Shown here: positions 27,504 to 33,584 of the stretch, in pieces
Position numbering within the stretch: the first letter of the stretch is position 1
How the letters are laid out: each line of letters begins with the position of its first letter
From: Nitrososphaera sp.
GTDB taxonomy: Archaea > Thermoproteota > Nitrososphaeria > Nitrososphaerales > Nitrososphaeraceae
Direction of reading: 5' to 3'
Length of the DNA stretch: 36,979 nt
NCBI RefSeq assembly: GCF_013388945.1
Contig: NZ_JACAEH010000019.1
Coordinates: 1 to 36,979, forward strand
Program-made: the position numbers and the translations under genes
Notes under the pieces: model-generated
Databases searched by the model: none
Told to the model about the DNA's origin: nothing
Seen by the model: only the letters and a program-made list of their open reading frames with translations

Positions 27504-28319
27504 CTACTCATTGTGCTGATTCAGGCCCCACCTAGCCCTTACTTTTTCTTCAAGCCTCATGAACACTAGTCGGTCAACAAGCAAGCCTATTGCAAAGATA
27601 GCTATCATAACCGCGATTATTTGACTCATGTCGTTGAATTCCCTGCCTACGTGAAGGACGTGACCAAGCCCGTAAAGGGTCGTTATCAGTATCTCCGCCC
27701 CTATCAAAGCATGCCACGCAAACGACCAAGCCTGCCGAATGCCCATGATGAGCGAGGGGGTAGCTGCAGGAATCATTACGTACCTGAGTAGCGCGAAACC
27801 ACTTGCGCCCATGTTCTTGGCAGCCCGTATGTAGATTGGGGGCACGTTGCGGATGGAGCCGTAGGTCGATGTCATGACAGAGAAGACTGACGCCATGATT
27901 ACTACAAAGAGTATGCCAAAGTCATTGAACCCTATCAGGAGTATTGAAAATGGCACCCACGCGATACTTGGAAATGTGAGTAGTCCTACTGCAAATGAGC
28001 TCATGGTCTTTCCAAAGCCCTGAAACTTCACCATCGTCAGTCCGACTGCGCCGCCTATTCCCACGGCCATTGCAAACCCTGCAAGGAGCCTCCACATAGT
28101 CACCCCGATACCGACTGTCATGGAAGAATCGGTCACGAGGCGGGCAATTGTTTCTATCACCTTCGCCGGAGTGGGCATGAGCACAGACGGGAAGATTCCG
28201 ATGTTTGAAACAAGCTGCCAGATTCCTACAAACGCGGCTAGGAAAAGGACGACATTGGCGATGTCAGTCGTATCTGGCCGGTATTCCTGCTTCCTAGCTT
28301 CAAGGATGGCTTTTTGCAA
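27504..28319 (-). CDS. ABC transporter permease, SsuC/TauC/NrtB type
   Basis: The 271-residue membrane protein has about six hydrophobic segments and the binding-protein-dependent permease (EAA-type) motif in RNVPPIYIRAAKNMGASGFALLRYVMIPAATPSLIMGIRQAWSFAWHALIGAEIL. This is the subgroup transporting sulfonates, taurine, nitrate or thiamine precursors. Its start overlaps the ATPase stop region by 20 bases, so the two are translated together. The exact substrate cannot be told from the permease. Codon use is less G+C-rich than that of genes outside the island. Confidence 0.9.
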   Translation of the reverse strand: MQKAILEARKQEYRPDTTDIANVVLFLAAFVGIWQLVSNIGIFPSVLMPTPAKVIETIARLVTDSSMTVGIGVTMWRLLAGFAMAVGIGGAVGLTMVKFQGFGKTMSSFAVGLLTFPSIAWVPFSILLIGFNDFGILFVVIMASVFSVMTSTYGSIRNVPPIYIRAAKNMGASGFALLRYVMIPAATPSLIMGIRQAWSFAWHALIGAEILITTLYGLGHVLHVGREFNDMSQIIAVMIAIFAIGLLVDRLVFMRLEEKVRARWGLNQHNE

Positions 28320-29115
28320 ACTTGAAATCCTCCTGCAGCTCGTTCAAAAGTTCTCTGCGGATTGCGCTTATCTCCGGGCTGTCAATGTCGTGGGGCTTTG
28401 GATAGTCTATCACAATTTCCCTCTTTATGCCTCTGGTGTGTGGCGAAAGGAGTATGATACGATCTCCCAGTTGGACGGCCTCGTTGATGTTGTGCGTGAC
28501 AAACAGGATCGTCTTGCCAGTCGATTTGTGTATCTGAAGTAACTGTTCGTGCAAAATCTCCCGCGTCTGCACGTCAAGCGCTGCAAAAGGCTCATCCATC
28601 AGTAATATCTGTGGGTCAAGTGCCAAAGCCCGCGCAATGGCTACCCTCTGCTTCATGCCCCCTGAGAGCTGGTATACGTATGAACCTGCAAACCTTGTCA
28701 GAGAGACCATTTCTATGAAATTACTGGCGATCTCTTTTCTGAGCTCCTTTGGGATTCCGGCGATCTTTAGCCCGAACTCTACGTTGTCCGTGACCGTCAG
28801 CCAGGGAAAGAGGGCTCCTTCCTGAAATATGACAACCCTCTCTGCTTTTCCAGTATTTTTGTTATCGCGCTTGGCAGAAATCGAGCCAGAATCAGGCGCG
28901 TCCAAGCCTGCTATTATGTTCAGAAGGGTGCTCTTGCCGCATCCTGAAGTACCCACTATAGTGACAAATTCACCTTCTCTCACGCGCAAGTTTAGTCTGT
29001 CGAGCACGCCGTGACGTCGAGGGTCACTGTTCTTCTCTACTTGCGGAAAGGTCTTGGAGACCTCTTTCAGTTCCAGAATTACGTTGCCCTGATATTCCTG
29101 TTCGATCTGAGCCAT
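28300..29115 (-). CDS. ABC transporter ATP-binding protein, SsuB/TauB/NrtD type
   Basis: The 271-residue ATPase has Walker A GTSGCGKST (residues 55-63), Q-loop VIFQEGALFPWLTV (Gln98), signature LSGGMKQRVAIARAL (150-164), Walker B LLMDEPFAALD (171-181) and H-loop ILFVTHNINEA. The FPWLTV after the Q-loop is characteristic of nitrate/sulfonate/taurine ATPases. A TATA-like TTATATCC (29138-29145) lies 23-30 bases before its ATG, so the ATPase-permease pair has its own promoter. Confidence 0.93.
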   Translation of the reverse strand: MAQIEQEYQGNVILELKEVSKTFPQVEKNSDPRRHGVLDRLNLRVREGEFVTIVGTSGCGKSTLLNIIAGLDAPDSGSISAKRDNKNTGKAERVVIFQEGALFPWLTVTDNVEFGLKIAGIPKELRKEIASNFIEMVSLTRFAGSYVYQLSGGMKQRVAIARALALDPQILLMDEPFAALDVQTREILHEQLLQIHKSTGKTILFVTHNINEAVQLGDRIILLSPHTRGIKREIVIDYPKPHDIDSPEISAIRRELLNELQEDFKFAKSHP

Positions 29116-29226: not shown

Positions 29227-29436
29227 TCACACCTGCCTTGATGTTCCCCACTTCACGCTGTTCCATATTCTTTCATGCAGATAGTAAATAGCAGTAGCCG
29301 ATACGCTGAAAACTATCGTGATAATGGTAGTCTGCTGCAGATTGCCCGTAAATATCCAAGAAATCAGAGCCAAAAGACCTGTAAGAATTGCCCTATAACT
29401 GAGCATCTTTACAAGCGACCTTTTTCGCGTTTCCAT
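29227..29436 (-). CDS. DUF2061-type small membrane protein
   Basis: The 69-residue protein reads KRSLVKMLSYRAILTGLLALISWIFTGNLQQTTIITIVFSVSATAIYYLHERIWNSVKWG, the full DUF2061 pattern: two transmembrane helices and the closing HERxWxxxxWG. In other organisms this gene often lies with sulfate-assimilation or sulfur genes, in line with the sulfonate-type transporter here. A TATA-like sequence (29456-29465) precedes the ATG. After KWG the frame adds only TSRQV and stops. Function unknown. Confidence 0.88.
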   Translation of the reverse strand: METRKRSLVKMLSYRAILTGLLALISWIFTGNLQQTTIITIVFSVSATAIYYLHERIWNSVKWGTSRQV

Positions 29437-29480: not shown

Positions 29481-30566
29481 TTATGTTATTTCTTGCAATC
29501 CTCTTTCTCGCAGAACCTTGTTTAGGATGGTCAAGTCATAGATTTCCGAGAGGTCCGGTTTCTGCCTTAGATAGCCCAAATCGTAAGCGGCGTTTGCCGA
29601 CTCGACAAGCGAATCTTTGATTGGATCGTAAGTAAGTTTTAACCTAGAGAGGGCGTCTTTGAATTCGTCATCTGGGATCGTCTTGCCGGTCAGAACCTGC
29701 AGCTGTTCGTTAAAGACTCTACGGGCCTCGTCAGGATGCGAATTTATCCAGTTTGTTTCGTCAATGTGCGCCTTGATCAGCTTTTCTATAACATCGGGGT
29801 TCTGGTTCAGATACTCTGTACGCACAATGATATGCGCTGTTACAAAGTCTCCGTTCGGCCACAGGTCTCGCTCGTCTAAGAATATGCTAGCGTTTGCTTC
29901 CTTGACGTGTTTGGCTACCCATGGCTCTGGAACCCAAGCGCCATCAATATCTTTCTTTACTAGCAGCGTAAAGATGTCTCCGTTTGATGCAGGCAGTACC
30001 TCTACATTCCCTCCATTCTCTTTTGTCTTGTAGCCGTTGTCAAGAAGGTACTTGCGCAGCGCGACATCCTGCGTATTACCCAGCTGGGGCGACGAGAATT
30101 TCTTGCCTGCAAAGTCTGCAACCGAGTTAATCCCTGCATCATTTCTTACAACAAAGGATGCGCCGCCGCTTGCAGCCCCTGCCACTATGCGCAACGCCTT
30201 ACCTTCAGATTGAACATAGCCGTTGATTGCAGGGTTTGGTCCGATGTATGTCACGTCTATCTGGTTTGCAAAGAGTGCTTCTATGGCAGATGGACCTGCG
30301 TTGAAGATCTGGGTTTTCACCTCAATGTTACTTCCAAGGGCCTTCTGAAAGTCACCGTTTCCAAGGCCTATGACCGCCTGTGCATGAGTGAGGTTAGGGA
30401 AATACCCTATCCTTACCGTTTTCTGCTGTGCTGGTTCAGCAGCGGTCGTTGGGTTGTTGGTTGCAGTGTTTGTACTGCCAGTCGATGTCGCGAGTAGCGG
30501 AACCGACGTGAAAATGACCGCTATGATTATGGCCGCGGCGATGCCAAACTTTAGCTTGTTGTTCAT
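29481..30566 (-). CDS. ABC transporter substrate-binding protein, SsuA/TauA/NrtA-like
   Basis: The 361-residue protein has a signal/anchor at residues 6-27, a Thr/Asn-rich linker (STNTATNNPTTAAEPAQQ) typical of archaeal surface binding proteins, then a periplasmic-binding type II domain: VRIGYFPNLTHAQAVIGLGNGDF, FNAGPSAIEALFANQIDVTYIGPNPAINGYVQS, GASFVVRNDAGINSVADFAGKKFSSPQLGNTQDVALRKYL and DIDGAWVPEPWVAKHV. These are the SsuA/TauA/NitT hallmarks. The ligand is an oxyanion or sulfonate; aliphatic sulfonate is favoured by the neighbouring ComA-like gene. It is divergent from that gene across a 157-base spacer with repeated motifs. Confidence 0.93.
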   Translation of the reverse strand: MNNKLKFGIAAAIIIAVIFTSVPLLATSTGSTNTATNNPTTAAEPAQQKTVRIGYFPNLTHAQAVIGLGNGDFQKALGSNIEVKTQIFNAGPSAIEALFANQIDVTYIGPNPAINGYVQSEGKALRIVAGAASGGASFVVRNDAGINSVADFAGKKFSSPQLGNTQDVALRKYLLDNGYKTKENGGNVEVLPASNGDIFTLLVKKDIDGAWVPEPWVAKHVKEANASIFLDERDLWPNGDFVTAHIIVRTEYLNQNPDVIEKLIKAHIDETNWINSHPDEARRVFNEQLQVLTGKTIPDDEFKDALSRLKLTYDPIKDSLVESANAAYDLGYLRQKPDLSEIYDLTILNKVLRERGLQEIT

Positions 30567-30588: not shown

Positions 30589-30715
30589 GGTTAATACTGC
30601 TCTTGAAGATGCAAGAAATGCAAGATACATGCAAAATCCTAGTAGAAATCGACGTCAAAGTGCAGAATCCGCACAGTTAGCAAGTTCAAAATATGCGCAT
30701 AAACTGCATATGCAT
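30589..30715. promoter_or_regulatory. Divergent promoter and operator-like repeats between the binding-protein and ComA-helix genes
   Basis: AGTATTAACC (minus strand, 30589-30598) is the likely TATA box of the binding-protein gene, and GCATAAAC (30697-30704) that of the ComA-helix gene. Between them ATGCAA occurs at 30609, 30618 and 30629. Palindromes ATGCGCAT (30693-30700) and TGCATATGCA (30705-30714) flank and overlap the plus-strand TATA. The shared ATGC core suggests binding sites of one dimeric regulator, plausibly the winged-helix protein encoded next to it. Confidence 0.5.
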
Positions 30716-30723
30716 GTACAGAA

Positions 30724-31710
30724 TTGCTTGAAGATTACGCCAAGAACAGGGTGGACGGCAAAAAGCCGAGAAAGGAAGGGAGGACCTACGTCATTGACAA
30801 GTTGCAGGGCCTTGATAAGGAGAACTTTGAAGCGATAGCCCCTTTCGTCGATGCGGTCAAGATCTATGGCGTTCTCCCCCTTTTGTTGCCTGAACAGGTA
30901 TTGCAGAAGAAGATAAAATTTTACCAAGACCTTGGCGTAAAAGTCTCCACCGGTAGTACCATTTCTGAATACATGGTAGCGGAAAACGCGTTCGACAAGT
31001 TTGTAGCGGCTGCAGCTAGAATAGGATTTGACATCATAGAAATCGGCGAGAACAGTCTTGACTTAACTTTTGAACAAAAGAAAAAGGTTACTGACACCAT
31101 TTTGGCCAAGAACCTAGAATTTCAATGGAAGGTGGGCAAAAAAGACCCGCGCCACCAGCTATCCATAGACTCTCTGGCAGCAAAGGTTGATGAGGCAGTC
31201 AAGCTAGGATCGGACAAGGTTGTGCTCGAAGCCAACGAGGGCGTTAACGTTGGCATATACGATGAAAAGGGAGCGATCAAGTGGAACTTTGTTGGAGCGC
31301 TTACTGCAAAATTTCCTCCAAACACTTTCATCTTTGAAGCGCCGCTTGAACATCAGCAGTCTGCCCTGATCGCAGAATTCGGTCAGAGAGTGAACCTTGC
31401 TGAGATCCATGTCGATGCTGTATCGTCAATAGAATCTCAAAGGAGGGGATTCCCTACAAAGGCGTCCTTCAGTGTGTCTTACTTGCGCAAAGAGCCCGAA
31501 GGAGGCCCGGGTGCAAAATTCGTCTATTTCATAATCAAGACTAGGCACCCTATAGACCAGGTTCAGATCATGGAGATGACGAGGCTGCCACGAAGGACTG
31601 TACAAAGCGCAATAGACGAGCTCAAGAGCCAAGGGTTGGTAATAGAAAGAAGTAGTCTCGACGATGCCAGAAAGAAGGTTTACAGTCCGGTGCAGTCAGT
31701 ATGGCTGTAG
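30724..31710 (+). CDS. ComA-like phosphosulfolactate synthase fused to a winged-helix domain
   Basis: The 328-residue protein starts at TTG 30724; a stop at 30700 in the same frame rules out a longer form. Residues 1-250 match phosphosulfolactate synthase (ComA), which adds sulfite to PEP in coenzyme M synthesis: KPRKEGRTYVIDKLQGL, STGSTISEYM, GFDIIEIGENSLDL, WKVGKKDPRHQ, KVVLEANEGVNVGIYDEKG, FIFEAPLEHQQSALI, RVNLAEIHVDAVSSIESQRRG. The usual KFGWGTS segment is KIYGVLPLL, so activity may be altered. Residues 262-328 are an added winged helix with recognition helix RLPRRTVQSAIDELKSQGLVIERS. It is divergent from a sulfonate-type binding protein. A sulfur-sensing regulator evolved from an enzyme is the likeliest reading (inference). 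Confidence 0.88.
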   Translation: MLEDYAKNRVDGKKPRKEGRTYVIDKLQGLDKENFEAIAPFVDAVKIYGVLPLLLPEQVLQKKIKFYQDLGVKVSTGSTISEYMVAENAFDKFVAAAARIGFDIIEIGENSLDLTFEQKKKVTDTILAKNLEFQWKVGKKDPRHQLSIDSLAAKVDEAVKLGSDKVVLEANEGVNVGIYDEKGAIKWNFVGALTAKFPPNTFIFEAPLEHQQSALIAEFGQRVNLAEIHVDAVSSIESQRRGFPTKASFSVSYLRKEPEGGPGAKFVYFIIKTRHPIDQVQIMEMTRLPRRTVQSAIDELKSQGLVIERSSLDDARKKVYSPVQSVWL

Positions 31711-31790: not shown

Positions 31791-32057
31791 ATGTTTGACG
31801 CATCTACCATAACACCAAGACAGACAGCCGAACGCGCGAATTTTATAATCTGCAACGAATGCTTTTGGTGCGCCTCATTGCTCGGCATTAAATCCGTTAT
31901 TAAGGAATGTCCCTCCTGCCGCAAGAGTTCCGTAGAATCCATGCCAATCTTTCGTGATGAGAGATACACGGTCGATTACAACACTAGTACTGGAATAGTG
32001 CTAGAGTTTTCACTGGCAAGTAGGAAAAGTTTTGTGGCATCCGAGCATCATGGGTAG
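31791..32057 (+). CDS. Small zinc-ribbon protein, 88 residues
   Basis: The protein starts at ATG 31791, with TATA-like GAATAAATCC about 20-30 bases upstream. It has two cysteine pairs, ICNECFWCASLLG and KECPSCRKSSVE, making one probable zinc ribbon (residues 21-45), then a beta-rich tail (PIFRDERYTVDYNTSTGIVLEFSL). Short proteins like this are often seen on archaeal mobile elements or as small regulators. The stop overlaps the next start by eight bases. Family not recognised. Confidence 0.7.
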   Translation: MFDASTITPRQTAERANFIICNECFWCASLLGIKSVIKECPSCRKSSVESMPIFRDERYTVDYNTSTGIVLEFSLASRKSFVASEHHG

Positions 32058-32234: not shown

Positions 32235-33584
32235 CTAGACAGAAACGGTTTTAGCTGTGGCATTCAGGCTGAGAGTATCAAATTTGACATGTATGGACTT
32301 GGCTATCTGTGCTTTGATATGCTCAGGGATGCCCCCGTAACACTTGTTCAAGACTTCGGTATTTTCCCATCCTCCTAAGCTTGCAACGTATGCAAGTGAC
32401 CAATTAGTAGCCGCTAGATAATACTGTGCCATTGTATGCCTGAACAAATGCAAAGGATGTCCGTTAAAGTATAGCCCGTCTCCTAGTGCGTATATTCTTG
32501 TCTTTTCATTTAGCCAGCTTCTTCTATCAAGCTCTGCAAATATTTTCTTAAACCTGACAGCCATTCTTGACATAAAGTAAGAAGCCTGCAGCGCATTTGC
32601 CTTGTCGCTCTTGGCGTCCTCAAAAAACAAGAATTTCCTTCGCGGCAGCCTGTCACGTGCGGTCTCGACAACAGCCCTGCATTCTTCAGTTGGGTACTTG
32701 ACCCACCACTTGCCTTCTTTTGTCAGGTACCAGTCGCCGCGCTTGATCTTTGGCTCAAACTGCTCGATTCTAAATAAAGGTGAGAAAGCTATTCTATCCC
32801 AACTCATAGATGCCATTGCAAATGCCCTTGCTCCGGTATGAAGGTCGATGTTCATGAAGCTCCAAGCTTCCCAGTCGCCCTCACTCCCAAGCAGCCTGTT
32901 TACCTTGTCTATCTGGTCAGGTGTAAGCATGATGTCTTTGTACTCGCCGAGCCTCTCAGGCGTCGTTGACAGTCCGTAGCGTCTTCCTTCCCCATGAGCG
33001 AAATTGATGTTGTGAGCGGCAAGGAAACTGCGATAGGCGTTAATCGTGTTTGTTTTCTGCATCTGTGGATGAGCAGTATTGAACCATGCAAGGAAATTAT
33101 GCCAATATTCAATCGCTAGTTCCTTGCGCTTCGCGGTATCAATAGGCACACCAAAGCTTACGATAGTCTCTGGCATCAACTTTAGCTGGTCAGACATGCA
33201 GTGTACCACATTGAGAAGGTACTGGATTCTTCTCGGTGGAATCCCTCCGGATTTCAGAAACGTTATCCACTTTTGAATGCACGGGAGCTGGTTGAACGGT
33301 TCACTTTCTAACTGCCTATATTCATTTGCAAGCTGTTTTTGCAGCGAGATTACGATGTTCCCATTGGCATCACGCCTGATTCCCCACTTGCCCTCTCTAT
33401 CCATTTCTGCCAGATAGCGTGAGACAGTACTGTGGTCCTTGCCAATGTCAGTGCCTATTTCTCTAGTTGTATAGTTACCGTTCTGTATGCTTATTGCTAT
33501 AGCTTCTTTGATCTTATCCCTGTCTTTGACCTTTAGCCCCTTGACACGTAGACGGCTCTTTCTTCTTACAAATACTTGAGCCAC
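32235..33584 (-). CDS. Tyrosine recombinase (integrase) with N-terminal helix-turn-helix
   Basis: The 449-residue protein starts at GTG 33584. Residues 20-62 form a helix-turn-helix (KIKEAIAISIQNGNYTTREIGTDIGKDHSTVSRYLAEMD). The C-terminal half has the tyrosine recombinase residues: Arg253 in LHTGARAFAMASMSWD, His379-x-x-Arg382-His in HLFRH, Trp406 in LGGWEN and nucleophile Tyr416 in NKCYGG. All appear intact, so the enzyme may be active. It lies at one end of the A+T-richer block, as integrases do in genomic islands. The HTH fusion at the N-terminus is unusual for XerCD-type enzymes and may recognise the att site or regulate its own gene. Confidence 0.9.
   Translation of the reverse strand: MAQVFVRRKSRLRVKGLKVKDRDKIKEAIAISIQNGNYTTREIGTDIGKDHSTVSRYLAEMDREGKWGIRRDANGNIVISLQKQLANEYRQLESEPFNQLPCIQKWITFLKSGGIPPRRIQYLLNVVHCMSDQLKLMPETIVSFGVPIDTAKRKELAIEYWHNFLAWFNTAHPQMQKTNTINAYRSFLAAHNINFAHGEGRRYGLSTTPERLGEYKDIMLTPDQIDKVNRLLGSEGDWEAWSFMNIDLHTGARAFAMASMSWDRIAFSPLFRIEQFEPKIKRGDWYLTKEGKWWVKYPTEECRAVVETARDRLPRRKFLFFEDAKSDKANALQASYFMSRMAVRFKKIFAELDRRSWLNEKTRIYALGDGLYFNGHPLHLFRHTMAQYYLAATNWSLAYVASLGGWENTEVLNKCYGGIPEHIKAQIAKSIHVKFDTLSLNATAKTVSV

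Follow-up and report, generated by a model that had tools for sequence, protein, structure and literature searches.

A ComA-like barrel fused to a winged helix is probably a sulfur-assimilation switch in soil ammonia-oxidizing archaea, and not the coenzyme M enzyme named by databases, with its DNA binding being inferred. The fusion is encoded in the window that we analyzed, a 36,979-nucleotide stretch from Nitrososphaera sp. As far as can be read from sequence, the fusion itself, its conservation in two archaeal phyla, its linkage to sulfur genes, the substitutions in its barrel, and an element in the promoters are all established. We consider it likely that the protein is an enzyme-derived regulator of sulfur assimilation that represses its own gene, activates a transporter, and senses sulfite or a related ligand, with the binding to DNA, the identity of the ligand, and the sign of regulation all being inferred. 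This lends support to the original prediction of an enzyme turned regulator of organosulfur transport, since ordinary ComA proteins have no such C-terminal part and the linkage is conserved (binding and ligand again being inferred), and extends it because of linkage to cysH, sat, and cysC elsewhere, the absence of ComB, and a recurring spaced-TGCA element.

The fusion gene is, as predicted, a single uninterrupted frame of 328 residues (30724-31710, + strand), found by an open reading frame scan and matched by full-length homologs. It starts with a TTG codon, which is backed by the same start residue being encoded by ATG or TTG in ~50 orthologs. The N-terminal part, predicted to be a ComA-like barrel at residues 1-250, matches the PF02679 ComA profile over residues 13-243 (30760-31452, +), with E = 3e-66 and 223.7 bits against a cut-off of 25.2, and this is the domain that we propose to be the sensor. 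An AlphaFold2 model produced from 41 sequences shows eight strands in a (beta/alpha)8 barrel, which Foldseek aligned to PDB 1QWG with E = 5e-21, a TM of 0.85 on the target, and 24-32% identity in the structural match. The winged helix that had been placed at residues 262-328 folds at residues 262-322 in the model (31507-31689, +), with helices at 262-274, 279-286, and 290-302 and a two-strand wing at 306-322, and is predicted to bind DNA. Modeled alone, this domain has a pLDDT of 87, and its Foldseek matches are SlyA/MarR-type regulators (prob 1.00) and the RPC39 winged helix. Profile searches were less even, with ComA far over its cut-off but only weak MarR_2/TrmB matches at residues 267-324, MarR_2 being slightly below the Pfam cut-off (E = 1.7e-5, 25.3 against 27 bits). 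The two domains are separated by a linker (~243-260) that is disordered in the AlphaFold2 model, after which only H1-H3 and the wing are seen, without flanking MarR dimerization helices. The winged helix is the most conserved part of the fusion, with 12 of the 19 invariant columns among 39 fused proteins falling in residues 260-316 and a recognition helix, LPRRTVQ, that is nearly invariant. In line with the original prediction, we ruled out that the C-terminal part is an ordinary ComA extension, because MJ0255 (251 aa) and B. subtilis ComA end after the barrel; unfused ComA relatives of the same class also lack it. Two other open reading frames lie on this side of the spacer. A small CxxC zinc-ribbon-like ORF is found downstream of the fusion gene (31791-32057, +), with comparable small CxxC proteins close to the cassette of other genera (L116, L117, and L144), and an integrase-like gene with a weak PF00589 match (32235-33584, -) adjoins the fusion gene and is probably a mobile-element remnant, since a relative near the L066 fusion gene is broken into pieces.

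ComA adds sulfite to phosphoenolpyruvate (PEP). We traced the residues common to M. jannaschii and B. subtilis ComA through the family, using M. jannaschii numbering and taking as barrel mouth the conserved residues at the C-terminal ends of predicted strands, which is the usual place of the active site in such barrels. In the window clade (53 sequences), D20, K43, E79, E103, K137, E168, E205, and Q212 are retained, and there are, with almost no exceptions, six substitutions (G45Y, W46G, G75S, E133K, R170N, and N227E) and a missing S172. The changed residues lie at C-terminal strand ends in the AlphaFold2 model. Thermoplasmata and the f7 group retain nearly all ComA active-site residues (D20, K43, GWG, GGT, E79, E103, E133, K137, E168, R170, S172, FEAP, Q212, and N227). 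At the other extreme, two loci between transporter genes (L116:2752-3741 and L117:10166-11152) have a strongly decayed barrel and an intact winged helix, and this fusion paralog is an apparent pseudoenzyme regulator. The window protein also misses the cut-off of the phosphosulfolactate synthase equivalog TIGR03849 (166.8 against 280 bits), and the own genome, which has cysH-sat and sulfite reductase, has no PF04029 match that would indicate ComB, while control genomes do. We therefore rejected synthesis of coenzyme M by the window protein, which the barrel-mouth substitutions and the lack of ComB make unlikely. Judged from sequence alone, the window-clade barrel is probably a sensor in which catalysis has been altered or lost, and the Thermoplasmata fusions, which may still be enzymes, are possibly trigger enzymes.

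How widespread is the fusion? In the family, 58 of 70 genomes have a match, and it is also found in some Nitrosopumilaceae and, in a scan of named genomes, in many Thermoplasmata; its conservation across species and two archaeal phyla is thus established at the level of sequence. The own genome (G000) has a second full-length fusion that is 66% identical (G000:C15:92302-93285; loci L002 and L065). This paralog is divergent from an SsuA-like gene of its own, which is followed by a permease but no adjacent ATPase. A class-wide search returned fused forms in several families, together with unfused ComA homologs of 280-300 aa. A tree of barrels only has a branch (SH-aLRT of 89) that separates all fused proteins from unfused ComA and from the references of M. 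jannaschii and B. subtilis, which makes a single fusion event likely but not proven; it is a quick tree with long branches. We found no description of a ComA-winged-helix fusion in the literature that we searched. Of the 14 loci with unfused homologs, 12 (L089, L092-L096, L099, L103, L107, L108, L112, and L114) have a gene of the MmgE/PrpD family close by, which points to an uncharacterized enzyme pair. In Nitrosopumilaceae, stand-alone winged-helix copies of 73-102 aa lie beside cassettes (L088:137-355 and L086:7055-7360), and one of them has TGCA-N5-TGCA sites 56-65 bp upstream.

As predicted, the fusion gene is divergent from an SsuA/TauA-like gene (29481-30566, -), whose product is a sulfonate-type substrate-binding protein with a PF13379 match and a TIGR01728 score over the cut-off (214.9 against 163.5 bits). 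It is followed by genes for an SsuB/TauB-like ATPase (28300-29115, -; PF00005, with SaoA/TauB-type NCBIfam models below their equivalog cut-offs) and an SsuC-like permease (27504-28319, -; PF00528). The substrate of the transporter is not fixed, since the ATPase and the permease miss the SsuB and SsuC equivalog cut-offs (176 against 395 and 96 against 347 bits, respectively). Between the SsuA and ATPase genes is a gene for a small DUF2061 membrane protein (29227-29436, -) that has no match in the cassettes of relatives with which it was compared.

The predicted linkage of the fusion to SsuABC-type transporters holds well beyond the window. After removal of duplicates there were 97 fused loci, of which 60 lie no more than 5 kb from a gene related to sulfur assimilation, compared with none of the 14 unfused ComA loci, where apart from one generic ATPase no listed sulfur gene was found within that radius. 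SsuABC-type components account for 40 of the 97 (against 0/14), cysH, sat, cysC, or the phosphodiesterase found together with sat/cysC for 15 (3 of them resting on the phosphodiesterase alone), rhodanese only for four, and TauE only for one. No listed sulfur gene lies within 5 kb in the remaining 37, about half of which are on contigs too short to tell. In four genomes of the Nitrososphaera group (G000, G026, G027, and G042), each of the two SsuA-like genes is next to one of the two fusion genes. One deep Nitrososphaeria group and Thermoplasmata have the fusion divergent from cysH(-sat) or beside sat/cysC, with sat, cysC, and TauE being identified via Pfam: cysH is divergent from the fusion in 8 of 8 Thermoplasmata loci (L217-L224), often followed by sat, the order is phosphodiesterase-cysC-sat-fusion in L186, and the fusion is divergent from sat-phosphodiesterase-cysC in L101/L216. 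In a Nitrososphaeria cassette (L109), TauE adjoins the transporter. The common denominator of the linked genes is the assimilation of oxidized sulfur, which passes through sulfite. Two associations deserve mention in their own right. Genes for sat, a type I phosphodiesterase, and cysC form a conserved cluster beside the fusion (L101:8957-12108 and L186:2450-6930), which occurs in one deep Nitrososphaeria group and soil Thermoplasmata, and a rhodanese gene is often near the fusion (L085:3-599 and, within cluster c6, 10 further loci), with a TGCA-N5-TGCA site 57 bp upstream in L085.

The spacer between the divergent genes contains the three expected ATGCAA boxes (30609, 30618, and 30629), an arrangement equaled by 28 of 20,000 dinucleotide shuffles. 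These coincide with a candidate three-box operator, TGCA-N5-TGCA-N7-TGCA (30610-30633, with boxes at 30610-30613, 30619-30622, and 30630-30633), for which there are no binding data and which, like the other candidate sites, is assigned to no strand. The inferred TATA-like element of the SsuA gene (TATTAA, 30591-30596, -) is 13 bp from the operator and kept in orthologous spacers. Toward the fusion gene lie a second candidate site, TGCAGAATCCGCA (30661-30673), with one mismatch to TGCA-N5-TGCA, an equally inferred TATA-like element, AAAATATG (30688-30695, +), and directly 3' of it a candidate autorepression site, CGCA-N5-TGCA (30696-30708), at the equivalent position of which paralogous fusion-gene promoters have TGCAGAATCTGCA. 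Two palindromes had been thought to overlap the fusion gene's TATA box; this is true of ATGCGCAT (30693), but TGCATATGCA (30705) is downstream of AAAATATG. What matters functionally seems to be TGCA at N5/N7 spacing, and neither ATGCAA nor the palindromes in themselves.

Upstream of fusion and SsuA genes, TGCA-N5-TGCA is seven-fold enriched compared to other intergenic DNA, and other TGCA spacings are not enriched in the same regions, except for N7 and, weakly, N12. Counted by lineage, the pair is present in 8 of 22, versus 0.3 expected from shuffles, and none of the other four-base palindromes containing G or C is found at N5 spacing in more than one lineage; the probability attached to this count is optimistic since the motif was picked after the sequences had been seen. 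The exact triple gives a stronger result, with all eight copies in 0.99 Mb of loci lying in cassette promoters, in both Nitrososphaeraceae and the Nitrosopumilaceae lineage, although the eight amount to about four independent cases because some are overlapping or orthologous. In SsuA and ATPase promoters, the triple box is just upstream of the TATA-like element and always in the identical orientation, which is where the archaeal activators CopR and OxsR act (PMC7830388, PMC9426492). In the fusion gene's own promoters, a TGCA pair is directly downstream of the TATA-like element, which suggests autorepression. The element has clear bounds. Of the 22 lineages, 14 lack the exact pair, neither the pair nor the triple box was found in Thermoplasmata loci, and the scanned part of the own genome (1.23 Mb, 62%) has a single intergenic triple box with no more than one mismatch, the one at 30610-30633. 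The operator is absent from the cysH-sat and sulfite-reductase promoters of the own genome, a check valid for G000 and plus-strand relatives only, so a global regulon using the same operator is not supported. We also discarded TGCA-N5-TGCA as a genome-wide marker since it is too frequent (148 places, against 52 for the control).

A mechanism can be proposed as follows. The ComA barrel would serve as the sensor, and the MarR-like winged helix on its flexible linker would read DNA by binding TGCA-N5-TGCA(-N7-TGCA). Bound just upstream of the BRE/TATA of the SsuA gene, the protein would activate the transporter, and bound just downstream of its own TATA it would repress the fusion gene; the sole basis for inferring activation or repression is where the sites lie with respect to a presumed TATA box. 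The presumed ligand is sulfite, because sulfonate use and sulfate reduction converge there, or another compound of ComA chemistry (PEP or phosphosulfolactate), and by sensing it the protein would let the transporter answer to the sulfur state of the cell. The three TGCA boxes are at 0, 9, and 20 bp, on one helix face. A bolder idea, which we regard as rather doubtful, is that the trimeric architecture of ComA is kept and that each trimer sets its winged helices on the three boxes, so that a sulfite-binding barrel reads the operator. If true, this would be an archaeal sulfite-sensing transcription factor, with non-dimeric DNA reading by winged helices, common to two phyla.

Other explanations have to be weighed against this regulator. 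It is possible, if unlikely, that the fusion is a trigger enzyme throughout, i.e., a still working enzyme for sulfite and PEP (or related substrates) that binds DNA and reports the flux through its own active site. The nearly complete active sites of Thermoplasmata and f7 members would fit this, as would the D20, K43, E79, E103, K137, and E168 that the window clade still has, and there is a precedent in RbkR, a bifunctional archaeal regulator-enzyme for riboflavin kinase (PMC8305020). What speaks against it is that virtually every window-clade sequence has substituted or lost W46, E133, R170, S172, and N227, and that the L116/L117 barrels have lost more residues still. We find it highly improbable that the protein is a metabolic enzyme only, in which the barrel would scavenge sulfite or produce a sulfonate and the winged helix would have a structural role or mediate protein contacts. 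Winged helices can indeed be non-DNA-binding, and where the gene is in line with transporter genes (L067, L087, L139, and L141) an enzyme is as natural as a regulator, but this would leave unexplained why the recognition helix belongs to the most conserved part, why winged-helix copies stand alone beside cassettes (L086 and L088), why barrels decay while the winged helix persists, and why cassette promoters have the spaced-TGCA element.

The remaining alternative concerns sulfur itself. Nitrate, bicarbonate, thiamine precursors, and aromatics are also among the substrates of SsuA-like proteins, and the fusion could be a dedicated regulator of the adjoining transporter only, with neither substrate nor ligand being a sulfur compound. 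This is consistent with a triple box that is unique among intergenic sites in the scanned part of the own genome and absent upstream of its cysH and sulfite reductase, with the missed SsuB/SsuC equivalog cut-offs, and with published tests in which taurine had no positive effect on N. viennensis growth (PMC4129164). We nevertheless consider it improbable, given that the SsuA-family cut-off is met, that the fusion adjoins cysH, sat, cysC, and TauE in other lineages, and that the known relative of the barrel uses sulfite.

Our preferred reading, a sulfur-assimilation regulator, would provide ammonia-oxidizing archaea and Thermoplasmata with a candidate regulator and operator for this pathway, for which our searches found no dedicated regulator in either group. 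Sulfur would thereby join the pathways whose own enzyme fold became an archaeal transcription factor, and a gene annotated as "phosphosulfolactate synthase" in one of these genomes should not be taken to mean coenzyme M biosynthesis.

Compared to known systems, the fusion shares with ComA (MJ0255, PDB 1QWG; B. subtilis, 1U83) the (beta/alpha)8 barrel and D20, K43, E103, K137, and E168. It differs by its C-terminal winged helix, seven changed barrel-mouth positions, a transporter neighbor, a score below the TIGR03849 cut-off, and a genome without ComB. With MarR/SlyA it has in common the winged-helix core seen by Foldseek and MarR_2, but only as a 60-residue DNA-reading core that lacks the MarR dimerization helices and remains below the MarR_2 cut-off. 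CysB and Cbl, which are LysR-type, regulate bacterial sulfate/sulfonate assimilation, with cysH, sat/cysD, and ssu as targets. Their role and target genes correspond to those proposed for the fusion, yet they have another ligand-binding domain, and we know of no sequence or fold relation between them. RbkR consists of an HTH and a riboflavin kinase, and ThiR of an HTH and a ThiN thiamine-phosphate synthase domain. Like the fusion, both combine a metabolic enzyme domain with an HTH in a single polypeptide, and their genes neighbor others of the pathway concerned, whereas enzyme fold and pathway are different, their HTH is N-terminal and that of the fusion C-terminal, and the operator is unrelated. 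Such archaeal enzyme-HTH regulators are the nearest kind and offer a precedent (PMC8305020). Of the criteria for this kind, a promoter motif is met only in part of the Nitrososphaeraceae/Nitrosopumilaceae lineages and without binding data, and a chain conserved across species and linkage to one pathway (60/97 versus 0/14) are both met by the fusion.
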